A stretch of 64,000 nt of DNA, taken from positions 310,001 to 374,000 of the forward strand of contig JAQTXZ010000001.1 in NCBI GenBank assembly GCA_028688515.1, given 5' to 3'. Below, piece by piece: positions 15,234 through 63,198 of this stretch (positions within the stretch are counted from its first letter, which is position 1; each line of letters starts with the position of its first letter). Both the position numbers and the translations under genes were made by a program. The notes under the pieces were generated by a model. The model was not told the origin of the DNA. It searched no databases and saw only the letters and a program-made list of their open reading frames with translations. This DNA is from Patescibacteria group bacterium (GTDB lineage Bacteria > Patescibacteriota > Patescibacteriia > 2-12-FULL-60-25).

Positions 15234-18143
15234 ATGATCTTTTCAGAAAACAAAACGCCTCTCAGTAGCGTATTAAAACTACTGACTGGTCTTTTTGTAA
15301 TATCAGCTTTCATGCTGATACAACAAAATTCAGCCAGTGCGGCATCAACCTGCAACTGGTTAAGCACGGTCGACAGTGATTGGGAAAATACGGCCAACTG
15401 GGATTGTATGGCTGTTCCAACTTCGACCACGATCGTCATAATTCCCGCAACTACCACAACGGTGTTAGGAGCAACGAGCTTGGCGGGTACTCTGACGGTT
15501 GGCGCGGGTGCCACAATAACTGCATCCACTTATGCGCTGACGGTAGCCAGTACACTTGCGAATTCAGGCGTAGTTACCTCGACTACCGGCACGTTAACAT
15601 TTACCGGTGCTGCAACAAATAATGCAGGTGGCATAATTGCGTCGAACACCGGCAACATGATGTTTGGTTCAACCTTGGCAAATGCCGGCACTTTGGATGT
15701 TGGTACGGGCGTGGCAACTACAACAGGTAGCTTGACCAACACAGGGACCGTCTACGGAAGAACCGGAAAATTGGCGATGGTCGCCGACTACTCCGGCGCA
15801 GGCGCTTTCACCGCGGGTACTGGGACGGTCACTTTTTACGGCGGCGCCAATCAAGCAATCCGCGGCGTGACATTCTATAATTTAGAAACTCGAAAATCAG
15901 CAGGCACTGTTACGGTTAATACTGCCAACATGGTCGTCGGCGGCGTGTTTGATACTTATGACGCCGGTACGTTGGATGCTGCTGCGCTTAACTTTTCCGT
16001 AACCGGAGCAACTACGATCAGACCGGGTGCAACTGTCACCTCCACTTCCGGTACGTTGACCTTCACCGGAGCGGCTACTAGCACCGGTTCCATCGGTTCC
16101 GTGTCCGGCAATATGCTTTTCGGCTCAACGCTTTCAAACAATGGTACGTTAGACGTCGGTTCCGGTACGGCAACCTCAACCGGTACTTTGACGAATGCCG
16201 GCACTGTCTATGGTCGCACCGGCAAGCTCGCTTTAGTCGCCAACTATACAGGATCGGGTTTCACCGCAGGTACAGGCACGGTGACTTTATACGGTACGGC
16301 AGCCCAGTCCATCCGCGGCGTGACCTTCTACAATCTTGAAGTTAGAAAAGCTTCCAATACCGCCACCATCGCCACAGCCAATGCCGCTGTCGGTGGAACA
16401 TTGAATACCTATGGCGCAGGCAAACTGGATTTGGTGGCTCAAACCCTGACCGTCACCGGCGCATCCACCATCGGTTCAGGTACAACAGTCACCTCGACTT
16501 CCGGTGACCTGACCTTTGCGGGCGTCACCAACGTGGGTAGCTTGGGCACGGTCTCGGGTAACCAGATTATGACTTCCATGACCAACTCCGGTACTTGGGA
16601 ACTCGGTGCGGAATCAACCTCCACCGGTGTCGTTACCAACACGGGCACGCTTTATCTTCGCAGCAACACTTTGCATGTAGGAGGCAACTGGACAGACTCA
16701 AGCGGTACTTTGACTCCCGGCACAGGCACAATCGAAATCAACGGCACGGGCGCACAATCGATCTCTGCCGATGACACCATGTACGATCTGACCATTAACA
16801 AAACAGCTGGCACGGCGACACTCACGGGCAACGTCACCACCACGGATAATTTGACCATCACTAACGGTACTTTGGACATAGATAGCTACACCTTTTCAGT
16901 TGGTGGTGATTACTCCAATGATGACACATTGGATGGAGGTACTGGTACGGTCAAGTTCAACGGCACGGGTGCACAGTCCATCGGCACGGAAGCTAACTTC
17001 TATGCCCTGACCATTTCCAAGACTGCGGGCACGGCTACTATGGTCGGTCACGTCTCAACCACCAACATGACCGTCACCGACGGCACCTTGGCCGTGGCTG
17101 ACAAAATCCTCTACGTCTCCGGCACATATGACAACGCCGATACGGTCAGTTTGACCACGGGCAAGATCAAGAGCGCAGCTGAACAAATCGCTTTCGTCAA
17201 TTCCTCCGGCGTGGAACAGACCAGCTATACAACCCCGAGCAACGTCTATCTGCAAATTGAGGACCAGAATCAAAACTTGCTCGCCGGGACTGCCGAAACC
17301 ATGACCGTCACCTTCTCGGGCAATGCCATTTCGGGCAGCGACTCTGATACCATTACTTTGACAGAGACGGGTATCGCCACCGGCATCTTCCGCTCGGCAG
17401 CCATTCCGTTTATCACTTCTCCGGTTATTCATGCCAACAACGACGAATGGGAAGTTTCAAACTCAGGCGTAGGCACAGAGTCCTTCACTGATTCGCAAGA
17501 CTCATCAGATACGGGTACGGATACTGTGACATTGGTTTACTCTGCGGCCACTGTCGGCGGAACGGGTGGCGGAGGCGGAGGCGGCAGTGTTGCTCCGGTG
17601 ACTGCCACATATCAATCATCACAGAGCGATCCAAATCGCGCAGCCAACTTGACCAATCTGGCTACAAAGGGTCTGTCCGTCAACTCCTTGGTCAAACTCC
17701 CGGATGACGGCAAACTCGACACCCAGGAAGATAGTGCGGTCTATTACATCGGAACGGACGGCAAGAGACATGCCTTCCCCAACTCAAAAGTCTATTTCAC
17801 CTGGTATGCCAGCTTTGACGGAGTCACAGTGATCTCTGCAGACTCATTGGCCAGCGTCCCGTTGGGCTCCAATGCACGCTACAGGCCGGGTGTCCGCATG
17901 ATCAAATTCACAACCGATCCCAAAGTCTACGCAGTTGACGCTCATGGAGTGCTCAACTGGGTTAAGACCGAGGAGGTGGCCAACTCTCTTTATGGAGACA
18001 CCTGGAACACCAAGATTGACGACATGTCCGACGCTTTCTTCGGCAACTACACCTTCGGCACGGAGATTAGCTCATCCGCCAGCTTTAACCCAACTTCGCT
18101 CTTGAACACCATCACCAGCGTGAGTACGGATTACGGGTGGTAA
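15234..18143 (+). CDS. Giant repetitive surface (S-layer-like) protein 2
   Basis: A 969-residue paralogue of the preceding gene with the same order: signal peptide (about residues 1-36, ending SASAA), Thr/Gly/Ser-rich beta repeats, a polyglycine linker and the DSAVYYIGTDGKRHAFPN C-terminal domain. The N-terminal ~390 residues and the C-terminal domain are diverged from protein 1. The central ~390 residues are encoded by DNA identical to that gene, so the pair has recently exchanged sequence. It has its own promoter and terminator, so the two could be expressed independently or alternately on the cell surface. Confidence 0.85.
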   Translation: MIFSENKTPLSSVLKLLTGLFVISAFMLIQQNSASAASTCNWLSTVDSDWENTANWDCMAVPTSTTIVIIPATTTTVLGATSLAGTLTVGAGATITASTYALTVASTLANSGVVTSTTGTLTFTGAATNNAGGIIASNTGNMMFGSTLANAGTLDVGTGVATTTGSLTNTGTVYGRTGKLAMVADYSGAGAFTAGTGTVTFYGGANQAIRGVTFYNLETRKSAGTVTVNTANMVVGGVFDTYDAGTLDAAALNFSVTGATTIRPGATVTSTSGTLTFTGAATSTGSIGSVSGNMLFGSTLSNNGTLDVGSGTATSTGTLTNAGTVYGRTGKLALVANYTGSGFTAGTGTVTLYGTAAQSIRGVTFYNLEVRKASNTATIATANAAVGGTLNTYGAGKLDLVAQTLTVTGASTIGSGTTVTSTSGDLTFAGVTNVGSLGTVSGNQIMTSMTNSGTWELGAESTSTGVVTNTGTLYLRSNTLHVGGNWTDSSGTLTPGTGTIEINGTGAQSISADDTMYDLTINKTAGTATLTGNVTTTDNLTITNGTLDIDSYTFSVGGDYSNDDTLDGGTGTVKFNGTGAQSIGTEANFYALTISKTAGTATMVGHVSTTNMTVTDGTLAVADKILYVSGTYDNADTVSLTTGKIKSAAEQIAFVNSSGVEQTSYTTPSNVYLQIEDQNQNLLAGTAETMTVTFSGNAISGSDSDTITLTETGIATGIFRSAAIPFITSPVIHANNDEWEVSNSGVGTESFTDSQDSSDTGTDTVTLVYSAATVGGTGGGGGGGSVAPVTATYQSSQSDPNRAANLTNLATKGLSVNSLVKLPDDGKLDTQEDSAVYYIGTDGKRHAFPNSKVYFTWYASFDGVTVISADSLASVPLGSNARYRPGVRMIKFTTDPKVYAVDAHGVLNWVKTEEVANSLYGDTWNTKIDDMSDAFFGNYTFGTEISSSASFNPTSLLNTITSVSTDYGW
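16413..17578. repeat. 1,166-bp block identical to 13369-14534 (copy 2)
   Basis: Second copy of the perfect direct repeat shared by the two surface protein genes; offset 3,044 bases. Confidence 0.9.
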
Positions 18144-53900: not shown

Positions 53901-54163
53901 ACTTTCCGCAGTATCTACAATATGGATTAAAAAATAAAATTGTGTTATATTTAATGGAACTTGGATTTACAGACCGCATTGGTATAATTGCATTATCAAA
54001 AGAATTAAGTGGCCTCGAATTTTCTGAACCACAAGAATTAAGAAATTATCTTAATCTTAATAATCAACAAGTGCTCAATTCTATTAAAGATAAGTTGCCA
54101 AGGATTGTTTATGATGGAATCGAAAAATCACTTAATTTTTTGGAATATGATTTTATTAAATAA
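50960..54163 (+). CDS. hamB: HamB-like superfamily 2 helicase of a Hachiman defence system
   Basis: A 1067-residue Ski2-like SF2 helicase. An N-terminal domain of ~220 residues precedes motif I TPTSSGKT (about residue 252), motif II DEGH (about 354), motif III LSAIVPN, motif V ICTNTLAEGINLP (about 594) and motif VI FGRVGRAGK (about 635). A ~400-residue helical C-terminal region follows. This matches HamB, the ATP-driven DNA sensor that partners HamA. All core motifs look intact, so it is probably functional. Codon use is strongly AT-biased compared with the neighbouring chromosome, consistent with acquisition. It ends 62 bases before the right inverted repeat of its cassette. Confidence 0.8.
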   Translation: MISDKLKLWIAQSESWQTYIDFKLPEDSIAAYDFLKRPEDFYISLFGSLYEVLENPEIEEEKILSVAKGMEIYSLKNKRDSFSGVSQSNNILFSAGLYYLANYSSSASLLANIFTFEDYQEDIEKFLLSFLNRKSLDQNLYRDLLNKFLKTGNQIYFIELLNKITAQKDKYFINDPHLFSLYYLTERILLKFKKSNIWTDLLEQNIDVSFWRGYIEKSISKKFPVWDFFPSQKIALEQGLLKEFKSIALQTPTSSGKTAISELLIYNEWKKNPQCRILYLAPFRALASELKQTFGKNLADLTIFSKTIYGGDIPTLDEKKAIQNVNLLISTPEKFIAIKNIDPDFSRNFSMIICDEGHLLGEQGNRGLNYELLLSQFKKENNKKFVFLSAIVPNIVDINNWLGGNEETVIRSDYRATEIECAFLKESPYSTEKSPRFDLEINPLSEIPKKYILYKFLTEDDLSYKKISPKKKKESVAIDNDLKSKSAIIALKSLNSGSVALFAPTKGPLGISGLVDELISQIDKKPDLFKHLNLKERSDDKSDLKEYFKVIFGEDYLLTKITDYSILFHHGDLPQCVRDVIEDYVREEKIKLVICTNTLAEGINLPIRTIVIHTTRRDNRDDISKINLRDLKNLFGRVGRAGKETKGLVIIPNPKDFSIVEKVIKDQELQKVEGYLYEILKIIHKNIQAKKITLTNEILEVQPEEFKERVDVIDKAIIDLLEENISVESIEEKIENLIKETFAYYQANEEEKKTLNTVIQLRGKKIKQYIENTNYQYIKKSGSNLRLYEELEEKLDLENDIWTNLENASNDEWLDFILEIVFSLSSIKYQLQKFNEKNFNCMIDRKKIFPKYNEYKNILKNIFEDTESKKLVFKNQIVEADPTDNFLNFPENLERILNRALEKRKKYITPIDIKKTIKLWMNGKWFEEISKEVCSDNINASLRLINQFMGYNLQSAITSIIHITELKLKEDKKVISGTILDFPQYLQYGLKNKIVLYLMELGFTDRIGIIALSKELSGLEFSEPQELRNYLNLNNQQVLNSIKDKLPRIVYDGIEKSLNFLEYDFIK

Positions 54164-54224
54164 AAAGATAGGGTGTTTTTCTTTTTCCAATTCACCCCTA
54201 ACCCCTCTTGGAAAAAGAAAAACG

Positions 54225-54294
54225 AAAAATAAAAATTCCAAATTATGAAAAAATTCTTCAACAAAATAATAAGGAATGAAAAAATATTGAAAAA
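54225..54294. repeat. Right inverted repeat of cassette 1 (Hachiman)
   Basis: Reverse complement of 50010-50080 with mismatches in the middle. Fifty bases (ACGCTTCGGGG to CTCACCCTC) separate it from the R'' box of attC1. Upstream, 54187-54224 contains a CACCCCTAACCCCTC-type fragment. Confidence 0.88.
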
Positions 54295-54344
54295 TACGCT
54301 TCGGGGTCGTTACACTTTCGCTCCACTCCGTTACGCTCACCCTC

Positions 54345-54442
54345 GCACAACACAGTATATCTGGCTCGCTCGTGCCCTCGCTCGACCCATATTTGCCTCC
54401 GCTATCGCTACGGCAAACATCAGATATACTGAAACGTTGTAC
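54345..54442 (+). other. attC1
   Basis: R'' GCACAAC (54345-54351), L'' AGTATATCTG (54354-54363), L' CAGATATACT (54421-54430) and R' GTTGTAC (54436-54442). The L arms pair perfectly over 10 bp with the asymmetric spacing of integron attC sites; the loop contains a CCGTAGCG-type inner palindrome. It ends the Hachiman cassette. Confidence 0.88.
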
Positions 54443-54576
54443 GCCATACTGCCCATTTTTCTGATACAATGCGAAAGGAACTTTTAGAACATTTTTAACA
54501 TTTTTTTATCTGCACCCACTAATGAGCTAAATAGATAGCGCCTACTTAAAACATTCAACTTTCAATATAATATTTT

Positions 54577-55596
54577 ATGGCAAGAGATATTACACTCTAT
54601 CCAAGGAAAGCCTCACAGAGAGAACTTAGCGACTATTTGAAAAGTCTAGGCTTTGAAAGATGTGACCATTTTTGGGATTGGCCAAAGGGAACGCTCAATT
54701 ATTTTTGGTTTGAACATAAAGACTTTAAATCCATTGATGGTGTGTCGGCAGATATATTCCCAGTTTCAGATGAAGATTTAAAAATAACAGAAAATAAATG
54801 GGCTTTACATGTGCGGAACATATACTCTGCCAGCTGGCATGATGTTAAAATGCTTAATCATGTCCTAAGATATGCTCGAAAGAAATTTGGGGGGACAATT
54901 AAGGGTGATTATGGAATCAATAGATATGCACCCTTATGGAAAGACGAAAGTACGCCTATAAGTAGGGGTTTGTCTGCCATTTATCAAAAAGTTGAACAAC
55001 AGATAAGTGCAGTTAAATATTCACTTCCGGAACCGTCTATTGAACTCAAACCTTCAAATGTCAAAATAGATAAATTCATTGAATTTGCTAACGGGCTTGA
55101 CCCAGCCCGGGTAATCTACAACGGATTAGTTCCCTTTGCTGTATCTATGTTTGAATTTTTCTTTTCTCAATCATTTCAGGTTCTCATTAAGTATGATCCT
55201 TTTGCGCTTAAAAAAAGAAACAGTCATAAACAAAATATTGATTTCTCAACTGTACTTGAATTACAAAACGAACAGAGGACATTTGAAAGTATAATAGCAG
55301 AGGCCTTTACCTTTCAAAATCTAAACCAACTGAATAAAGCCTATAAGGAATGGTTGAATATTGACGTTAGAGAAATACTATTTAAGAAGAAAAAAATAGG
55401 AGCCTCTATCAGGTATTTAGAAAATAGGATCGCTGAAATAATTCAGTTTAGACATGGGATTATTCATCACTTCGCCATAGACTCAAAATTAACAAAAGCT
55501 GACTATATACACATTCTGCAAGCTATTGAGTTGGCAATTGCTGAGTTCATTCATTTCATAGAAAAGAGGTACAACATAAAAGTTGAAGTAGCTTAA
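54577..55596 (+). CDS. Cassette 2 protein with C-terminal HEPN-like Rx4H motif
   Basis: A 339-residue protein. The N-terminal half is unrecognised (MARDITLYPRKASQRELSDY). The C-terminal third is helical and carries FRHGIIHHF around residue 293, an R-x4-H motif of HEPN ribonucleases, followed by a long helix (HILQAIELAIAEFIHFIEKR). HEPN proteins with this motif are often RNA-cleaving effectors in defence or toxin systems; activity here is inference. It fills cassette 2 between array cores 54436 and 55754, with inverted repeats near both ends (CTTTTAGAACATTTTTA 54481-54497 and its complement 55603-55619). Confidence 0.65.
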   Translation: MARDITLYPRKASQRELSDYLKSLGFERCDHFWDWPKGTLNYFWFEHKDFKSIDGVSADIFPVSDEDLKITENKWALHVRNIYSASWHDVKMLNHVLRYARKKFGGTIKGDYGINRYAPLWKDESTPISRGLSAIYQKVEQQISAVKYSLPEPSIELKPSNVKIDKFIEFANGLDPARVIYNGLVPFAVSMFEFFFSQSFQVLIKYDPFALKKRNSHKQNIDFSTVLELQNEQRTFESIIAEAFTFQNLNQLNKAYKEWLNIDVREILFKKKKIGASIRYLENRIAEIIQFRHGIIHHFAIDSKLTKADYIHILQAIELAIAEFIHFIEKRYNIKVEVA

Positions 55597-55652
55597 AATT
55601 GATAAAAATGTTCTAAAAGACTCTATTTAAGACGAAAAATGGGTAGTACAAC

Positions 55653-55760
55653 GTACAACACGCACTAGGCGGTTCCGTTCGATGACTCACTCCACCCAAA
55701 TTTTGCACTGGTTATGATATTATACCAGCACAAAACTTCGCCCAGTGCGAAACGTTATAC
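55653..55760 (+). other. attC2
   Basis: R'' GTACAAC (55653-55659; a tandem second copy at 55646), L'' CGCACTAGGCG (55661-55671), L' CGCCCAGTGCG (55739-55749, one mismatch) and R' GTTATAC (55754-55760). R'' is the exact complement of the preceding core GTTGTAC (54436). The loop holds an inner stem TTTTGC...GCACAAAA. Confidence 0.88.
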
Positions 55761-55785
55761 GAAATATTTATTACCCCTTTTATTT

Positions 55786-56121
55786 ATGACTGAAAAATAT
55801 GACTTCTACTGTGAAGAGGCTTTATCTGACAAAACAGACATTGATAAAATTTTCGAGTCCGATAATGTTCTAGCTTTTCACCATACGAGGCCGTCATATC
55901 CGACTCATATTGTAATAATATCTAAGAAGCATATTCTAGACCTACCCTCTTTGCTAGATGAAGATTTAATAATACTAAATGAAATTCTGAAGGTTGCTCG
56001 TGATATTTCCAGGACATTGGATAAAGACCAGGGGTTGAAGTTGATTAATAATATTGGCAAATTTCAAGATACGCCTCATATTCATTTTCATTTAGTTGGT
56101 GGTGAAAAGCTAGAACGCTAA
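55786..56121 (+). CDS. HIT family nucleotide hydrolase/transferase
   Basis: A 111-residue HIT-superfamily protein with the catalytic histidine triad HIHFHLVGG (about residues 99-107) and the upstream FHHTRPSYPTHIVIISKKHI strand region. Such proteins hydrolyse nucleotidyl conjugates such as AMP-lysine or Ap4A. I start at ATG 55786 (MTEKYDFYC), because the upstream part of the frame lies inside the attC site. Cassette 3 cargo; ATTTATTACCC (55766) and GGGTAATAAAT (56130) are its inverted ends. Confidence 0.85.
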   Translation: MTEKYDFYCEEALSDKTDIDKIFESDNVLAFHHTRPSYPTHIVIISKKHILDLPSLLDEDLIILNEILKVARDISRTLDKDQGLKLINNIGKFQDTPHIHFHLVGGEKLER

Positions 56122-56145
56122 TATTGAATGGGTAATAAATACATC

Positions 56146-56224
56146 GTAGAACATTTCATATCTGGTTCCGCTAACGCTTCACGCAAATTGCTTGGCAACT
56201 GCAGATATAAAAATGACGTTCTGC
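56146..56224 (+). other. attC3
   Basis: R'' GTAGAAC (56146-56152), L'' region CATATCTG, L' CAGATATAAAAATG (from 56202) and R' GTTCTGC (56218-56224). R'' differs from the complement of the preceding core by one base. Confidence 0.82.
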
Positions 56225-56247
56225 GAAATTCAATAACCCAAAATACT

Positions 56248-56649
56248 ATGAAAAAAATAATAGCTACAACCAAGGCGCCAGCAGCAACACCTCTTTTCTC
56301 ACAAGCGATTCTTGAATCTTCAAAATATCGCTTGGAAATATCTGGACAGATCGGCCTTGACGGCAATGGCAAATTGGTAGATGGAGGCATTGAGGCTCAA
56401 ACCAAGCAAACTCTTCAAAATGTCGAAGGCATAGTGAGCGAACTTGGCTGGACGCTTGAAAATTTAACAAAGGTCAGGATATATTTGGTTGATATGGCAG
56501 ACTACACAAAGGTTAATGAGGTTTATGCCACCAAGTTCACGAAAAATCCTCCCGCAAGAATTGCCATTGCCGTCAAAGCCTTACCACTGGGAGCGCTCAT
56601 AGAAATTGAATGTGTTGCTGCTGGCGATGAAATATCGAAAGTTATTTAA
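56248..56649 (+). CDS. RidA (YjgF/UK114) family protein
   Basis: A 133-residue RidA-fold protein; RidA enzymes hydrolyse reactive enamine/imine intermediates formed by PLP enzymes. Visible: KYRLEISGQIGLDGNGKLVD, QTKQTLQNVEGIVSELG, the signature-like NPPARIAIAVKALPLGALIE with the catalytic-site Arg, and IECVAAG. I start at ATG 56248; the frame upstream is attC sequence. Cassette 4 cargo, bounded by perfect 15-bp inverted repeats (56229-56243 and 56660-56674). Confidence 0.9.
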   Translation: MKKIIATTKAPAATPLFSQAILESSKYRLEISGQIGLDGNGKLVDGGIEAQTKQTLQNVEGIVSELGWTLENLTKVRIYLVDMADYTKVNEVYATKFTKNPPARIAIAVKALPLGALIEIECVAAGDEISKVI

Positions 56650-56678
56650 TAGCAGTGGGTTTTGGGTTATTGAACATC

Positions 56679-56764
56679 GCAGAACACGCGATATCCGCAA
56701 GGGCTAAAGCCACATTTCAATTCGCTTCGCTTCTTGAAACGTCGGATATCGCGATACGTTATGA
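56679..56764 (+). other. attC4
   Basis: R'' GCAGAAC (56679-56685), L'' CGCGATATCCG (56687-56697), L' CGGATATCGCG (56743-56753, perfect 11-bp complement) and R' GTTATGA (56758-56764). R'' is the exact complement of the preceding core GTTCTGC (56218). Confidence 0.9.
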
Positions 56765-56816
56765 GACATTACGCTAATTTTCACATAAACTAAATTTACA
56801 TTTAACCAATACTTTT

Positions 56817-57308
56817 ATGTCTCAAGCGTTAAAAATGATCTTTGTTGCAGTCGTCGCCGCACTTATCGGAGGTAGCGGCACATATTTGTATCAAGCAAAT
56901 CAATCTCCAATTTCGCCACTCGCTAATACACAAGAACGAAAAATAAACGAACCGGAAGTTACAACAGCAATTGGTTCTGCAAATAAATTTACAGGGGTGG
57001 CAAAGTATAACTGTGAGAAAAGTGGCGGTTCGTTTACCAATAATAGTTGCGTATGTCCTATTGAAGCAGAATTAGGCCAGACTCAAGAGATGATGTATGA
57101 CAAAAATACCGGCTATTGCCAAACAACAGCCGGCGGTCCGGGTGGTGATGCTTTTGCTACTTCAATTGGATTACCATATGGAGATTATGGATTCTTTATG
57201 GGTATCATCGTAAATAGTTGTGAAAAATCGGGTGGCGAAATGTCTGGCGCGGCTTGTATTTGTTCAAAGAACACGACTTACGATAAGTCGACAGGATATT
57301 GTAAATAA
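56817..57308 (+). CDS. Cys-rich membrane-anchored or secreted protein (cassette 5)
   Basis: A 163-residue protein with an N-terminal signal/anchor (about residues 6-26) and two related Cys-rich units outside: NCEKSGG...CVC...TGYCQ (about 65-101) and SCEKSGG...CIC...TGYCK (about 134-163). The four-Cys units suggest small disulphide-bonded domains. No family recognised. Its cassette ends are the inverted CGCTAATTTT (56772) and AAAATTAGCG (57307). Confidence 0.7.
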   Translation: MSQALKMIFVAVVAALIGGSGTYLYQANQSPISPLANTQERKINEPEVTTAIGSANKFTGVAKYNCEKSGGSFTNNSCVCPIEAELGQTQEMMYDKNTGYCQTTAGGPGGDAFATSIGLPYGDYGFFMGIIVNSCEKSGGEMSGAACICSKNTTYDKSTGYCK

Positions 57309-57323
57309 AATTAGCGCGACATC

Positions 57324-57433
57324 ACTTAACAGCGCATGTCTGGTTCGGCTGCGGCCTCACCCATATTTGCCAGCGGTCGCCCTTCGGGCATATTGTACCG
57401 CTGGCAAACATCAGATATGCGCAAACGTTAAGT
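57324..57433 (+). other. attC5 (last site of array 1)
   Basis: R'' ACTTAAC (57324-57330), L'' GCGCATGTCTG (57332-57342), L' CAGATATGCGC (57412-57422) and R' GTTAAGT (57427-57433). An inner stem TTGCCAGCGG/CCGCTGGCAA is visible. R'' complements its own R' rather than the preceding core GTTATGA. Confidence 0.88.
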
Positions 57434-57439
57434 TAAATA

Positions 57440-57480
57440 TGAAAAAGAAAAGCCCCGCACGGTGAAACCGCATGGGGGAA
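57440..57480 (-). terminator. Intrinsic terminator of the minus-strand gene
   Basis: On the minus strand CCCCATGCGGT-TTC-ACCGTGCGGGG is followed by CTTTTCTTTTT, just inside the end of array 1. Confidence 0.75.
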
Positions 57481-57506
57481 TGATGGAGAGGAGCTGCTTA
57501 TCAGAA

Positions 57507-57905
57507 TTAATCCGGCGGAAGGAAGAGGCTGTCGGGCGCTTCGGTAATAGTGCATTTTGCGCCACCTCTGCCGGTTGCCGGACTGGAATATTCTCCGACC
57601 CACAGGTCACCTACGCGCCTGAACTTGTAGCGAATGATGTCGTTGCGGTTGTCGTATTTCTTTGCGAACTCTGCATCTTCCTGGGTGATCTTCACATCGA
57701 ACAACTCCGACTCGCCGAAATGGTCAAACATCTCACCGATCAGCTCTTGCTCGCTGTGAGGATTGGGGTAGATCACCCCAGAGTACATATATCTGCAAAG
57801 TCCTTCATGAATTACAACGCCAACGCCGCCCTCAACTTCTGACCGATGAGCGACGCTTAACCACTCACGGTTTTGAAAAAAGAACCCATGAATCAAACGT
57901 GCCAT
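57507..57905 (-). CDS. ORFan protein encoded against the array direction
   Basis: A 132-residue protein (MARLIHGFFFQNREWLSVAH start) of unknown family, without signal or membrane segments. It is the only minus-strand gene in the cassette region and has higher GC than the cassettes. A strong SD (GGGAGGTG) lies just before the ATG and a terminator follows, so it is self-sufficient. The SD context GAGGTGCAG resembles that of the ORFan at 832. It may be a cassette with its own promoter or chromosomal sequence trapped between two arrays. Confidence 0.68.
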   Translation of the reverse strand: MARLIHGFFFQNREWLSVAHRSEVEGGVGVVIHEGLCRYMYSGVIYPNPHSEQELIGEMFDHFGESELFDVKITQEDAEFAKKYDNRNDIIRYKFRRVGDLWVGEYSSPATGRGGAKCTITEAPDSLFLPPD

Positions 57906-58062
57906 TCTGCACCTCCCAGTTGAACAGCTTGATGGGTGTGTTTTGTTGAGATATTACGTGATTACACCCTAAAAATCAAGGGTGAGCAAAAAAATCAAAG
58001 GGGTATTTTAAATCTATACATTTGTTCGCTCTGGTGGCAATATGCAAATAGCTGGATGATAT

Positions 58063-58734
58063 ATGAAGACATGGTTAAAACGTTCACTTATCGCCCTCGG
58101 CATTCTGGTGGTTTTTGGAGTAAGTTTGATTTTTGGCGTCAATCTGTACGTGGAGCGAACAAGCTCTCGTTATATTTTAAGTCCCACGGAAGCTCCCAAG
58201 GCGGATGCGGTTTTAGTGCTTGGCGCGCACGTATTTTCCGATGGAAAGGTTTCGGACATGTTGAACGATCGTTTAATCGAGGCGCAAGAGCTGTACAAAC
58301 TTGGCAAAGCCGACAAGATATTGGTTAGCGGCGACCATGGTCAAAAAGATTATGATGAAGTGAATGCAATGAAGGATTTTTTGGTTGAGAGGGGTGTCCC
58401 GACACAAGATATTTTTATGGATCACGCCGGCTTTAGTACATACGAGAGCATGTACAGGGCAAGAGATGTTTTTGAAATAAAAAAGGTTATTATCGTTACG
58501 CAAGGATACCACTTGATGAGGGCTGTATTTGACGCAAGGGAGCTTGGTCTTGAGGCTTATGGCGTTGCCTCTGACCTGCGCAATTACGGTCCGGTGATGA
58601 ACTCGTACCGATTAAGGGAAATCGCAGCCAGGGACAAGGATTTCTTTTTTGCAAAGCTCTTCAAGCCCTTGCCGACTTTTCTTGGTAAAACAATTCCAAT
58701 TACGGGAGATGGCAGAGCGACGGATGATAAATGA
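58063..58734 (+). CDS. SanA/YdcF-like DUF218 membrane-anchored protein
   Basis: A 223-residue protein with one N-terminal membrane helix (about residues 9-28) and a DUF218 domain: ADAVLVLGAHVFSDGKVSDM, DRLIEAQELYKLGKADKILV, SGDHG, STYESMYRARDVF and VTQGYHLMRAVFDARELGLE. SanA and its relatives affect envelope permeability in other bacteria; the chemistry is unsettled. It lies between the two cassette arrays, followed 13 bases later by a methyltransferase. Confidence 0.85.
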   Translation: MKTWLKRSLIALGILVVFGVSLIFGVNLYVERTSSRYILSPTEAPKADAVLVLGAHVFSDGKVSDMLNDRLIEAQELYKLGKADKILVSGDHGQKDYDEVNAMKDFLVERGVPTQDIFMDHAGFSTYESMYRARDVFEIKKVIIVTQGYHLMRAVFDARELGLEAYGVASDLRNYGPVMNSYRLREIAARDKDFFFAKLFKPLPTFLGKTIPITGDGRATDDK

Positions 58735-58747
58735 TGCTCACGCTATT

Positions 58748-59410
58748 ATGAAACCAAACGAAAAGCAAAATATATTTACTGATGATGTGGATTATGCGAG
58801 TACTCCCGATGATTCTGTCTGGGGTGCAGAGGATAAAGCTACGAATGATTTATTGCAGAGCGCTAATATTACAGGGAAATGGCTTAACTTATGCGCCGGC
58901 GACGGAAGATTTAACAATCGGTTGCTGATCAGGGCTGATCAGGTTATCGCTGCCGATATTGACGAAAGCGCTCTAAGAAAATTAATTCGTATTACGCCTA
59001 AAAAACTAAAGAACAAGCTTGTCACGAAAGAAATGAATGTTGCCAAACGATTTACATTTGAGGACGGCGCGTTTGATGGCGTGTTTTGTGTCGGTACCTT
59101 GCATCTTTTTCCGAAACAGATTTTTAAAAATATATTCGGTGAAATAGAAAGGGTCTTAAAGCATGACGGACAAATAATCATGGATTTTGCCACAGATATT
59201 AAAAGAACTTACCCCGATGGCAGTTTATGGATTGTTGAGAATGAACCGAATTATACTTTAAACGAAGCGCTTTCATTTTTGAAAGTCATATTCAAAAATT
59301 ATAAGTTCAATATCGTTACGAATAAAGTTGAGCCCGAAAAGGTGAAGTTAAATAACAGGGAATATGTTTTTACTTCTAATTATATTCTGATTAATACATT
59401 TACTGATTGA
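58748..59410 (+). CDS. Class I SAM-dependent methyltransferase
   Basis: A 220-residue methyltransferase: KWLNLCAGDGRFNNRLL is motif I (E/DxGxGxG variant), VIAADIDESALRKLI is motif II, and FDGVFCVGTLHLFPKQIFKN, then IERVLKHDGQIIMDFA, follow the UbiE/Methyltransf_11 layout. Substrate unknown. I start at ATG 58748 (MKPNEKQ). Its stop (59408-59410) overlaps the first codon of a remnant of the hydrolase 3' end. Confidence 0.8.
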   Translation: MKPNEKQNIFTDDVDYASTPDDSVWGAEDKATNDLLQSANITGKWLNLCAGDGRFNNRLLIRADQVIAADIDESALRKLIRITPKKLKNKLVTKEMNVAKRFTFEDGAFDGVFCVGTLHLFPKQIFKNIFGEIERVLKHDGQIIMDFATDIKRTYPDGSLWIVENEPNYTLNEALSFLKVIFKNYKFNIVTNKVEPEKVKLNNREYVFTSNYILINTFTD

Positions 59411-59456
59411 TATCTTGCTGCAGTGTATACAGGTATCGTTTCAGATGCCGGGTTAG
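59409..59456 (+). pseudogene. 3'-terminal remnant of an alpha/beta hydrolase gene
   Basis: Sixteen codons reading DILLQCIQVSFQMPG and a TAG align with the last 16 codons of the hydrolase at 49228-49908 (DSLAQWMQESFQVPM). By eye about 35 of 48 bases match. Nothing upstream of it matches, since the methyltransferase occupies that side. Confidence 0.75.
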
Positions 59457-59535
59457 TCGAGCTTTACGGTTTTTCGCTTAAGTGGCAGGATATGGATGGT
59501 TATACGAAGTGATTTCGTATAGAAGCGAGTTCTGC
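59457..59535 (+). other. attI-like head of cassette array 2
   Basis: TTAAGTGGCAGGATATGGAT, a hairpin (TATACGAA 59501-59508, TTCGTATA 59514-59521) and a core GTTCTGC (59529-59535). It is a diverged copy of 49918-50003. The hairpin pair G-C of copy 1 is A-T here, so pairing is preserved by covariation. The following cassette's R'' is GCAGAAC (60173), the exact complement of this core. Confidence 0.7.
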
Positions 59536-59539
59536 GAAA

Positions 59540-59582
59540 TGCCAATAAATTCTTTTATTTATAATTTGGGGAAGTTTTATTC
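59540..59582. repeat. Left inverted repeat of the HD-protein cassette
   Basis: TGCCAATAAATTCTT and TTTGGGGAAGTTTTATTC, both mirrored exactly at 60122-60168. Confidence 0.88.
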
Positions 59583-59596
59583 TTGCGTCAAAATAT

Positions 59597-60118
59597 ATGT
59601 CAAAATCACTTAATATAAAATTTGAAAAAGCCGTCCGAATTCTGTCGGAATATATGCCACCGTCAGATGAAAATAGCAGAAAGCCTGTGATGTTTCACGA
59701 TATACGCGTTGGCGTGTATTTATATGAAAATGGTTATTCAGAAGATGTTGTTTTGGCTGGCGTTTTGCACGATGCGATTGAGTGGTCTGGTGCTGACGAA
59801 CAATTGTTGAGAGATGAGTTTGGAGATAATGTTGTTCGCTTGATTTTTGCGAGCACTAAAGATGATACGATCGTGGACAAAGAGGAAAAAACCAACGAGC
59901 TGATTCAAAGATGTGTGCAAAACGGGCAAGATGCGCTTATTGTTAAGACTGCCGATATTATTGATAGCTTCAAGTGGTATGCCAGCCAAAACAACGAGGA
60001 CGAATTAAAAAATCATTGTGTTAAGAACGCCAACGCTATTTTCAAATTTAAACCGGAAGATTTTGACGATAAAATATTTAAAGAGTTGAAAAGTTGGCAA
60101 GAAAGATTTGCAAGATAA
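59597..60118 (+). CDS. HD-domain phosphohydrolase-like protein (cassette)
   Basis: A 173-residue protein resembling the HD hydrolase domain of RelA/SpoT-type proteins. Visible: KPVMFHDIRVGVYLYENGYS, VVLAGVLHDAIEWSGADEQL (the HD motif) and ALIVKTADIIDSFKWYASQN, with a later acidic residue that could complete the metal site. It may hydrolyse (p)ppGpp or other nucleotides; activity is inferred from the fold. Cargo of the first cassette of array 2. Confidence 0.75.
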   Translation: MSKSLNIKFEKAVRILSEYMPPSDENSRKPVMFHDIRVGVYLYENGYSEDVVLAGVLHDAIEWSGADEQLLRDEFGDNVVRLIFASTKDDTIVDKEEKTNELIQRCVQNGQDALIVKTADIIDSFKWYASQNNEDELKNHCVKNANAIFKFKPEDFDDKIFKELKSWQERFAR

Positions 60119-60121
60119 ACC

Positions 60122-60168
60122 GAATAAAACTTCCCCAAATACAATAAGGAAGTAAGAATTTATTGGCA
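60122..60168. repeat. Right inverted repeat of the HD-protein cassette
   Basis: GAATAAAACTTCCCCAAA and AAGAATTTATTGGCA, reverse complements of blocks at 59540-59582; ends five bases before attC6. Confidence 0.88.
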
Positions 60169-60172
60169 CATC

Positions 60173-60300
60173 GCAGAACACGGCATATCCGGTTCAGGAA
60201 TTTTTCACATTTATAATTCAAGGTAAGAAAAATTCCTTCTCCCAAATTTTTGTTCCGCTATCGCTGCACAAAAACTTCGGATGATGCCGAAACGTTATAT
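60173..60300 (+). other. attC6
   Basis: R'' GCAGAAC (60173-60179), L'' CGGCATATCCG (60181-60191), L' CGGATGATGCCG (60278-60289, one extra base) and R' GTTATAT (60294-60300). The long loop has an inner AGGAATTTTTC/GAAAAATTCCT stem. Confidence 0.88.
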
Positions 60301-60336
60301 GCCAGCGGGCGAGAAACACTCTAATTCACAAATACT

Positions 60337-60681
60337 ATGACACACGAATTCAAAGGAACTATTGTTGAGGAAAGTTTACAAGATAATCGAATACTCAACG
60401 ATTTACATATTATTGGTGTAGAGATTTCTCAAGACGAAAATCCAGCTAACCGATGGCATATGTATTCAGTGTTAGTGACTCGGGAAGACATTGAACGTCT
60501 TTCAGTCACCATCAAGCCGAAGTGGTATATGCACTTTTGGAAGGACAGGGATATTGTTGCGATTTTTCAGGGAAAACAGTTTGAGTTTAATTACGATGAT
60601 AAATCGACATGGGCACAGGCAGTTGAATATGGTTTATCCCAGGGAATTCCCAAAGAACAGCTGGATTTTCTCATTGATTAA
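60337..60681 (+). CDS. Hypothetical cassette protein
   Basis: A 114-residue soluble protein of unknown family (MTHEFKGTIVEESLQDNRIL start; WYMHFWKDRDIVAIFQGKQF). The WYMHFWK and IFQGKQFEF segments suggest a compact alpha/beta domain. It fills the cassette between cores 60294 and 60756; the inverted ends share GCGGGCGAG (60305) and CTCGCCCGC (60688). Confidence 0.65.
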   Translation: MTHEFKGTIVEESLQDNRILNDLHIIGVEISQDENPANRWHMYSVLVTREDIERLSVTIKPKWYMHFWKDRDIVAIFQGKQFEFNYDDKSTWAQAVEYGLSQGIPKEQLDFLID

Positions 60682-60700
60682 CGTGTCCTCGCCCGCCAGC

Positions 60701-60762
60701 ACATAACAGCGTATATCTGCCATGCGCTACGCGACACAGCGGATGATACGCGAACGTTAGGC
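60701..60762 (+). other. attC7
   Basis: The shortest site: R'' ACATAAC (60701-60707), L'' GCGTATATCTGC, L' GCGGATGATACGC and R' GTTAGGC (60756-60762). R'' differs by one base from the complement of the preceding core. Confidence 0.85.
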
Positions 60763-60779
60763 GAAATAAATCCCCACTC

Positions 60780-61451
60780 ATGAAAAGTAATAAAGCAATC
60801 CTAATCGCAGTCATTCTTTCGATAATATTTTCTGGCATTTACATTTTTACTAATCGGATGCCCGAAGCATTTAAGTTTGGTAGCGAAATAATGGATTTCT
60901 TCTACGGAATTGCACTTGGGACTATAGCAGCTGGTATTTTTTACCTCTTTCAAGTTTTTATTCCCGAAAAAAGAAGGCAAAAAATTGTGAGGGAAAATTT
61001 CAAATTGAACTACACCCTCTTTAAAAAAGATTCTATAGCTATTTTTCTTTCTGCCTTAGGTTCAAGCTACGACTCAGAATTGCCTAAAATGCTTTCCGAT
61101 CTGGAGGAGTTCAAAAAATATTTCAAGGCAGATTTCAAAGAGGGCCAAGACAGGTGGCATGGCGTTGTAAATGGATTGAATAAAAATTTGCTTCAAGATT
61201 TACTTGTTCAATTTGAAATTTTATCGCAAGAAATAGATTTTTTTCTAAACAATGTTGTACTTCACGACGAGGAAGTTTTTGCCTTCTTAAAAAGGTTAAA
61301 AATTACAATAAACGGGTTAAAAAATACCAGCCTAGACTATGATGAGATGAAAACGCTTTCGCACTTTCTTTGGGAGCTTTTCGCGGGATGGAGCTACGTT
61401 ACAGGATATCGAAAGAGCGACATCTTTGAGGAAATGTTTAGCAAAGTTTGA
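60780..61451 (+). CDS. Hypothetical membrane protein (cassette)
   Basis: A 223-residue protein with two N-terminal membrane helices (about residues 5-23 and 38-61) and a helical, Phe- and Lys-rich cytoplasmic domain (about 65-223). No family recognised. Cassette ends are the inverted TAAATCCCCAC (60767) and GTGGGGATTTA (61454). The two-helix anchor plus soluble domain is a common layout for membrane-associated effectors, but there is no direct evidence of that here. Confidence 0.65.
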   Translation: MKSNKAILIAVILSIIFSGIYIFTNRMPEAFKFGSEIMDFFYGIALGTIAAGIFYLFQVFIPEKRRQKIVRENFKLNYTLFKKDSIAIFLSALGSSYDSELPKMLSDLEEFKKYFKADFKEGQDRWHGVVNGLNKNLLQDLLVQFEILSQEIDFFLNNVVLHDEEVFAFLKRLKITINGLKNTSLDYDEMKTLSHFLWELFAGWSYVTGYRKSDIFEEMFSKV

Positions 61452-61468
61452 TCGTGGGGATTTACATC

Positions 61469-61838
61469 ACTTAACACGGTATAGCCGGTTCGCTCGCTAA
61501 AAATTATTCTTTAATCGAAGATATGAAAAAAATACTCGTATCAACATTAGTAATATTGGTTTTGATAATTATCTATCAAGCCATACAGATTATTCGTTTA
61601 GAACGATACCACTATGCATCTCAACTTGGTTACTGTCAGGAAATAGAGGAGCTTGTTGAGAGGGGAAGGTGTCTCAACGAGACCGAGACAAGAACAAGTC
61701 CGATTTATCATTTGCTTTACGGACTGGAACTAATTTAAAAGAATAATTTTTGACGTTCGCTCACCCAAATTTGGCTGTGGTGAGCACTGCGTGCGAATTG
61801 TACCACTGCCAAACTACGGCTATTGCGGAACGTTAGAC
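61469..61838 (+). other. attC8, split by an inserted small gene
   Basis: The left half is R'' ACTTAAC (61469-61475) and L'' CGGTATAGCCG (61477-61487). The right half is L' CGGCTATTGCG (61817-61827) and R' GTTAGAC (61832-61838). The halves pair but are about 330 bases apart. GTTCGCTCGC (61488-61497) and GTTCGCTCAC (61755-61764) flank an insert bounded by inverted TAAAAATTATTCTTTAA and its complement (61735-61753). It is the last site of the array. Confidence 0.8.
61523..61738 (+). CDS. Small membrane-anchored protein nested in attC8
   Basis: A 71-residue protein with an N-terminal hydrophobic helix (KILVSTLVILVLIIIYQAIQ) and a short polar tail with two Cys (GYCQEI, GRCLNE). No family recognised. 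It sits within the loop of an attC site, surrounded by its own inverted repeats. Confidence 0.6.
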   Translation: MKKILVSTLVILVLIIIYQAIQIIRLERYHYASQLGYCQEIEELVERGRCLNETETRTSPIYHLLYGLELI

Positions 61839-61891
61839 GAAATAGCAAAAAGCCAAATCTATTTATTTTTGCCTCCTTCTCACTTTTAGTC

Positions 61892-61897
61892 TAAAAT
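61892..61897 (+). promoter_or_regulatory. -10 box of the D,D-carboxypeptidase
   Basis: TAAAAT eight bases before ATG 61906; consistent with leaderless or near-leaderless transcription. The preceding 61839-61890 contains no gene. Confidence 0.45.
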
Positions 61898-61905
61898 ATT
61901 CAGTG

Positions 61906-63198
61906 ATGTTTAAAAAGTTCTTTTTGATTTTTGCGGTGCTGATTACAGCCGGTTTTTTTGGAATTATCCACAGGGCAGATGCAGCATTAAGCGTCGTGCC
62001 GGTTAGGAATCCAAAGGTTGCGGATTATGCGCGTCCGGCGGCGGATTCTTTTGTGTCGGCGCTTGTTATCGATCTAAGTTCAAATAAGGTTTTGTATGAG
62101 TACGACGCGGACAGGATTTGGGTGCCGGCGAGTTTGACCAAGCTGATGACCTCGCAGGTTTTTGCGCCGCTGCAAACATCTTGGACAAAAATCGTGAGCC
62201 TTAAAGCGGAGGACGAAGTCGGCGGGGGCAGGTTGCGAGTGGATACCGGGGCGCAATTGAGCGTGATGGATGTCATGTTCTCGACTATCACGGCAAGCGC
62301 CAACAATACGGCGACAGCCATGCAGCGGTTGACGAGTTTAACCAAGGATCAGTTTTTGGCGCGCATGAACAGCCGCGCCAAGGATTTGGGCTGCAAGGTG
62401 GCGGAGTTTCATGATTCTTCGGGCATGAACCCGGAAAACAAAATTACGGCGCGCGACATTTCTTTGATTGCCAAAGCGGCTTGGAAGATTCCGGAGATCA
62501 GGCGCGCGGCGGATACTGCTTCGTATTCTTTTACGATTCGCAACACCGGCGAAAAAAAGACCATCAAAAACACCAACGAACTGCTGATAGATCCAAATAA
62601 CGACTTGTACGTCACTGCCGGAAAGACGGGATACTTGGAAGAGTCGCTCAATAATCTCGTCTATACAGTCAGACCGTCCCAGGCTGCAGTCAAACAAGAG
62701 CTGATGGTTGTGGTGCTGGGCGCGCCGACAAAGGCCAAGATGTTTGATGTGGCGGAAGATCTTACCAAGTGGGCATGGAAAGCTTATGACTGGAGCGGCA
62801 AAATTGTCGAGGTCGCAAAAGATGATTTTCAGGACGGATCTTTAATTAAACTCGCAAGCGCTCCAGAGGTCTGGTATGTATGGAAAGATAAAAAATACCA
62901 TCTGCCGGACGAAGTATTTTTGAATCTTTATTTTAAGGGCAAAAACATTTCGATAGTTGATAAAACCTCTGCGGACGGATTGGGGGACGGGGGAGATTAT
63001 AAGTTTGACGATGGAGCGTTGGTAAAAACCGGCGTAGATAGTTCGGTTTATTTGGTACAAGGAGGGGATTTGCGTCCAATAGCCAGCGGCGAGGCATTTG
63101 AATCCATGGGTTACAAATGGGATCAGATAGTGACAGTTCCTGCACGTGTGCTAGAATCCTATCCCAAGGCCGAAATAATCACTTTGGCCGTCAAATAA
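61906..63198 (+). CDS. Secreted D-alanyl-D-alanine carboxypeptidase (S11) with C-terminal surface domain
   Basis: A 430-residue penicillin-binding-type carboxypeptidase that trims peptidoglycan stem peptides. It has a signal peptide (about residues 1-27, ending ADA), then the three active-site motifs: PASLTKLMT (SxxK), ASANN (SxN) and AGKTGYLEES (KTG). The C-terminal ~130 residues (VWYVWKDKKYHLPDEVF, DDGALVKTGVDSSVYLV, LRPIASGEAFESMGY) resemble the end domain of the two surface proteins at 12-18 kb, so they may share a wall- or surface-binding module. I start at ATG 61906; a GTG directly before it is also in frame. Confidence 0.9.
   Translation: MFKKFFLIFAVLITAGFFGIIHRADAALSVVPVRNPKVADYARPAADSFVSALVIDLSSNKVLYEYDADRIWVPASLTKLMTSQVFAPLQTSWTKIVSLKAEDEVGGGRLRVDTGAQLSVMDVMFSTITASANNTATAMQRLTSLTKDQFLARMNSRAKDLGCKVAEFHDSSGMNPENKITARDISLIAKAAWKIPEIRRAADTASYSFTIRNTGEKKTIKNTNELLIDPNNDLYVTAGKTGYLEESLNNLVYTVRPSQAAVKQELMVVVLGAPTKAKMFDVAEDLTKWAWKAYDWSGKIVEVAKDDFQDGSLIKLASAPEVWYVWKDKKYHLPDEVFLNLYFKGKNISIVDKTSADGLGDGGDYKFDDGALVKTGVDSSVYLVQGGDLRPIASGEAFESMGYKWDQIVTVPARVLESYPKAEIITLAVK

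Follow-up and report, generated by a model that had tools for sequence, protein, structure and literature searches.

An attC site with a gene between its halves

The window (the whole stretch of 64,000 nucleotides analysed here) belongs to a genome of 1.29 Mb in four contigs and carries eight co-directional attC sites in its last 10 kb; the array features described below lie on the + strand unless given as antisense. The last of the eight, attC8 (61468-61839), forms the 3' end of a cassette and is 372 nt long, compared with 64-130 nt for its seven neighbours. By its R''/R' and L''/L' boxes with a GTT triplet and its complementary core stem, attC8 is recognizable as an attC. As the original prediction stated, an R''-L'' half (ACTTAACACGGTATAGCCGG, 61469-61488; 29.4 bits with a half-site weight matrix) and a matching L'-R' half (CGGCTATTGCGGAACGTTAGAC, 61817-61838; 31.8 bits) are both present, with complementary upper stems (AGCCG/CGGCT; overall GGTATAGCCG versus CGGCTATTGC). 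The core-stem score of the site is 5.8, the medians being 9.8 for ordinary sites and 3.3 for mispaired halves.

Between the two halves lies a nested gene, an ORF of 71 codons (61523-61738), whose product has a single hydrophobic stretch, N-terminal as judged by eye. The gene is enclosed by a perfect 14-bp inverted repeat (IR), the left arm of which (AAAAATTATTCTTT, 61499-61512) is exactly complementary to the right arm (AAAGAATAATTTTT, 61738-61751); these are the arms of hairpin I of the attC. None of 2000 Markov-shuffled flanks (mean 13.4) reached the IR score of 28, and 121 non-array ORFs in the window averaged 12.7, the highest scoring 22. Thus, a 71-codon gene bounded by IRs is confirmed, and of the 17-bp repeat first proposed (TAAAAATTATTCTTTAA), 14 bp are perfect while the full length needs one indel. 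A direct repeat, GTTCGCTC, sits at the base of hairpin I (61488-61495 and 61755-61762) and is read here as attC sequence, not as a target duplication. Hairpin II of the terminal structure (TTTGGCTGTGGT / ACCACTGCCAAA) occupies 61770-61813.

Homologues of the nested 71-aa protein were absent from 41 order-level genomes, viral contigs and Pfam/PHROGs, and four matches among 381 genomes of the class (E 0.004-0.008) were taken as noise. No second or free copy of the insert was found, its own genome included, and the suggested check for the insert elsewhere with the same IR boundaries yielded no case in the genomes searched. The pattern GGTTCGCTCGCTAAA, used to look for an empty version of attC8, occurs once in the genome.

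The host cassette of attC8 extends from the R' GTT of attC7 to the R' of attC8 (60756-61838) and contains a 223-aa gene (60780-61451) with hydrophobic N-terminal stretches (by eye), which has no Pfam match and no relative among the 381 class genomes. Because no relative carrying this host cassette was found, an empty version of attC8 could not be seen. The cassette is delimited by a terminal IR, whose left copy consists of R' and the following bases (60756-60777) and whose right copy runs into R'' (61454-61475). Such long, cassette-specific terminal IRs extend R'/R'' by 10-28 bp in cassettes of the window (54436-61475) and of other loci (L060-L147) and carry a conserved AA/TG mismatch (GAAAT versus GATGT). 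They score at least 20 in 57% of 177 cassettes, against 2.4% of mispaired ends; in the class 1 aac(6')-Ib cassette, the one clear cassette serving as control, the terminal IR is only 12 bp in all.

A search of window positions 54000-62200 against Rfam at E up to 0.1 returned no RNA family match and no intron family, and a group II intron in the attC was rejected on this result. The stretch from attC5 to the next cassette start (57427-59530) departs from the cassette pattern; it comprises an antisense ORF (57507-57905), a DUF218 gene, a methyltransferase-like ORF and, near 59400-59530, a degenerate end resembling an attC.

Ordinary attCs have a hairpin at the position of the nested gene

In ordinary attCs of this group, the R and L boxes form a core stem that bears two side hairpins at its top. 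Hairpin I lies between L'' and CACCCAAATT, and hairpin II comes next. The loop of hairpin I holds from a few to about 25 nt in ordinary attCs, whereas in attC8 it holds the complete 71-codon gene; loops of hairpin II can reach about 100 nt. In many ordinary attCs hairpin I is a clear IR. In attC6 (60172-60301), for example, it is the IR AGGAATTTTTC..GAAAAATTCCT, with an 11-bp stem and a short loop at the same position as the nested gene in attC8, and similar cases occur in L063, L071 and L072. Some sites were overlooked or wrongly delimited by the regular expression for hairpin I, which served for description only. The IRs around the nested gene, originally taken as the boundaries of a unit of its own, are for the most part components of a hairpin branch shared with ordinary attCs. 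A doubled motif of the kind seen at the base of hairpin I in attC8 is likewise present in uninterrupted attCs, for example as GGTTCGCTCCTGCCGTCGCTCTCCC, and as GGCTCGCTCGTGCCCTCGCTCGACCC in attC1; a doubled TCGCT motif was found in 23 of 276 ordinary attCs.

Two further observations concern these sites. Their hairpin loops often hold TATAAT- or TATGATAAAAT-like stretches together with AAGGAG-like stretches (window 55719-55740; L071, L072, L122, L128), which may serve the following cassette as promoters or ribosome sites. In addition, a 91-nt part of attC6 (window 60166-60307) matches an attC in another family (L139) at 98.9% identity, and so attC sequences themselves spread.

Gene-filled attCs recur in related genomes

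Covariance-model searches detected attCs in 179 of the 381 class genomes, with arrays very common across this class of small-genome bacteria; 276 ordinary attC sites were listed in 61 stretches. Because the covariance models (R1, R2) miss filled sites, we adopted a half-site weight matrix with a strict adjacency rule, by which only a left half with a right half immediately after it, on the same strand, counts as a pair. Across 101 stretches this gave 283 ordinary pairs (up to 260 nt) and 36 long pairs (291-1106 nt): 196 and 33, respectively, in the first set of stretches, and 87 and 3 in 40 further stretches outside the matrix training. Reversed sequence gave no half-site pairs. The stretches were picked around strong attC hits, so the frequencies of long sites are not genome-wide values.

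Most long sites have strong IRs in the same place. Their IR scores were at least 24 in 30 of 36 and at least 31 in 28 of 36, whereas the mispaired control, with a slightly narrower search window, had a mean of 18.5 and 95% and 99% levels of 25 and 31. The arms differ from site to site and share no common terminal sequence. The enclosed genes are diverse, encoding Trypsin_2, GNAT (two), Fic, HicA, ribbon-helix-helix and gp30.3-like proteins as well as cupins and small membrane proteins, and attCs of the attC8 type hold other genes elsewhere (a protease in L132, a GNAT in L133, others in L121 and L170). The nested gene sits in hairpin I at most long sites and in hairpin II in L133 (Fic, 16139-17095) and L126 (HicA); the longest ORF is sense in 28 long sites and antisense in 8. 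Weak IRs were seen in 6 of the 36 long pairs, several of which also have poor core stems; some pairs in which both stem and IR are weak (L139, L134, three in L135, L147) probably do not represent nested genes and may be wrong pairings. Three related attCs from three genomes (L117:5814-6469, L123:17701-18483, L130:11028-11799) have hairpin I arms of about 60 nt in common, with different genes between the arms.

The two halves of filled sites pair across the insert

In the first set, the core-stem score was at least 8 in 73% of long sites and 79% of ordinary sites, compared with 6% of mispaired halves. The three-pair base of hairpin I kept its complementarity across the insert in 24 of 25 long sites, where 17.8 were expected, and the corresponding figures for ordinary sites are 154 of 185 and 132.5; all these counts come from related sequences without correction for shared ancestry. 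The base pairs covary (GGT/ACC, GGC/GCC, GAC/GTC) across inserts of 300-1100 nt. Matching core stems and a complementary hairpin I base across the insert argue against a deletion between two attCs.

The terminal structure of the Vibrio cholerae attC (VCR) can be replaced with little effect on recombination (PMC2727003), and a gene in an attC terminal structure could thus be tolerated. When one arm was shuffled in a nearest-neighbour DNA model (23 sites), mean core pairing fell from 0.72 to 0.70, which indicates that the arms are dispensable at equilibrium when the core is strong. Sites with a weak core gained from their arms (attC8, 0.10 versus 0.00 shuffled; L121, 0.21 versus 0.03). Since its own core pairs poorly (0.10), attC8 may be a poor substrate, weak or dead. 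A role of the arms in folding is suggested by the covariation, and equilibrium folding lent it weak support.

One cassette occurs empty and filled, and one gene in three attCs

The original prediction suggested looking for uninterrupted versions of the attC in relatives, and an empty/filled pair exists for another cassette, the host cassette of attC8 itself not having been found in relatives. Two copies of this cassette, in L132 and L133 from different families, are 95.7% identical over 1250 nt, and their homology begins exactly at the R' GTT. The GTT of R' is the cut point of integron recombination. The attC of the L133 copy is empty (129 nt), while that of the L132 copy is about 0.95 kb long and contains a 252-aa protease gene. 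Both attCs have the lower stem in common (ACGGCATA / TATGCCG), but the upper stem and everything above it differ, with compensated pairs (ATACG/CGTAT versus AGCCG/CGGCT). The pattern in these sequences is compatible with an exchange of attC heads.

A second case is a 117-aa gene nested in three attCs from three families. The inner arm (AATTTATTTT) is common to the three, whereas the outer arms are specific to each attC yet complementary in each, and hairpin II differs. Of the copies of this gene in 26 further genomes, hardly any lies close to an attC half, and in the seven copies outside arrays whose flanks were inspected the arms are absent.

The recombinase of the same genome

No integrase lies beside the eight attCs of the window, and an integron-type recombinase is encoded elsewhere in the genome. 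It is a 271-aa tyrosine recombinase (L020:1486-2298; G000:C2:87669-88475) resembling integron integrases, which scored 206.7 bits against TIGR02249, below the cut-off of 265, and thus falls outside the IntI type as defined by that profile. About 58 profile positions (about 179-236) are unmatched, including the region of the IntI-specific segment. Recombinases of this 271-aa type neighbour attC arrays, in the orientation typical of integrons, in many Patescibacteria MAGs (L188-L203, L214). On contig C2 and at many of the Patescibacteria MAG loci, the recombinase has attC halves upstream of it on the other strand, an arrangement that the window array does not have. Among named integrases, the nearest come from Buchananbacteria and Kerfeldbacteria MAGs.

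Discussion

attC8 has the anatomy of one attC, sites of its kind recur with unrelated genes, their arms are paired above a covarying base, and one cassette is found both empty and filled. We consider it likely that attC8 is a single integron attC with a gene in its terminal structure, that the IRs are the arms of hairpin I, and that the gene arrived by head exchange. Most likely, the upper part of an attC (the upper stem plus the two hairpins, together with any gene they enclose) would be swapped with that of another attC, so that whole upper hairpins are exchanged with or without a gene while the IRs keep the core foldable. The nested gene would be a passenger whenever the host cassette is excised or inserted, travelling without an attC of its own because it is carried in the loop of hairpin I of the host's attC. 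We infer that filled sites recombine, that selection for folding maintains their arms and that genes enter by head exchange.

Alternatively, the IRs could be kept for a role in RNA or expression, as an mRNA panhandle, terminator or attenuator around the gene, and not for attC folding. Ordinary cassettes also possess gene-specific terminal IRs at the frequency given above (57% of 177 versus 2.4% of mispaired ends), folding energetics do not require the arms at equilibrium, and a GGGCTCTTTTCAATTTTTT-like arm common to several antisense units may be a terminator. We regard this as unlikely, however, as the arms abut the attC branch point, whose pairs stay complementary across the insert, short hairpins devoid of a gene are found at this position too, and the array is without an Rfam family match.

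It is likewise improbable that a MITE- or transposon-like unit, consisting of terminal IRs and a cargo gene, entered the loop of the attC by transposition and left a target-site duplication behind, as the original prediction envisaged. Such a unit would account for the IRs at both ends, the 8-nt direct repeat at attC8 and L132, and the three copies of the 117-aa gene with common inner arms in different attCs. However, 28 of 30 IR-bounded sites, like the mispaired controls, have no direct repeat longer than 5 nt, so that such a repeat, real at attC8, is present at only 2 of the 30, and the doubled TCGCT motif also occurs in ordinary attCs (23 of 276). Moreover, the arms vary among sites, the attC8 insert was not found elsewhere in its own genome, and the chromosomal copies of the 117-aa gene whose flanks were inspected are devoid of arms. 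Hence, of the proposal that IR-bounded genes insert into attC loops, their repeated presence there without attCs of their own holds, and insertion with target-site duplication does not. Finally, a deletion or fusion of two neighbouring ordinary attCs that left a small gene between unlike halves, named in the original prediction as the finding that would overturn it, has a precedent in the fused class 1 cassettes ascribed to attC loss (PMC4670013), but is very unlikely here, as in long sites the core stems of the two halves fit each other like those of ordinary sites, which mispaired halves do not, the base of hairpin I covaries across the insert, and strong IRs stand at the same place in most cases.

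Among known systems, integron attCs with large variable terminal structures such as VCR come close. Like VCR, the gene-filled attC has R''/L''/L'/R' boxes, a folded single strand and a branched structure atop the L stem; the terminal structure of VCR measures 65 bp (PMC2727003), whereas here it holds whole genes (about 47-252 codons) between long, site-specific IRs. The eight co-directional attCs of the window resemble a CALIN, an attC cluster without a nearby integrase, but they sit in a Patescibacteria-like genome, and their cassettes end in extended terminal IRs that are specific to each cassette. Group IIC-attC introns and IS1111-attC elements also occur inside attC sites; in contrast to them, the attC8 insert is a plain small gene with no room for a transposase or reverse transcriptase. 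The fused class 1 cassettes (PMC4670013) similarly have two genes per attC, but through loss of an attC, whereas here matching attC halves enclose the gene. In the literature searched, with partial coverage, no paper on integrons of Patescibacteria was found.

The origin of cassettes, and the way in which a gene acquires its first attC, have long been open questions. Gene-filled hairpin loops mean that attCs can hold genes without attCs of their own, and such sites would escape searches that assume short attCs. More tentatively, and with the balance of our judgement against it, attC heads might constitute a second, nested level of gene exchange, the upper hairpins with genes between their paired arms being swapped from cassette to cassette. 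Genes lacking an attC could then spread and perhaps seed new cassettes, the possible route to cassettes named in the original prediction. The existence of empty and filled versions of one cassette makes gain, loss and function directly testable.
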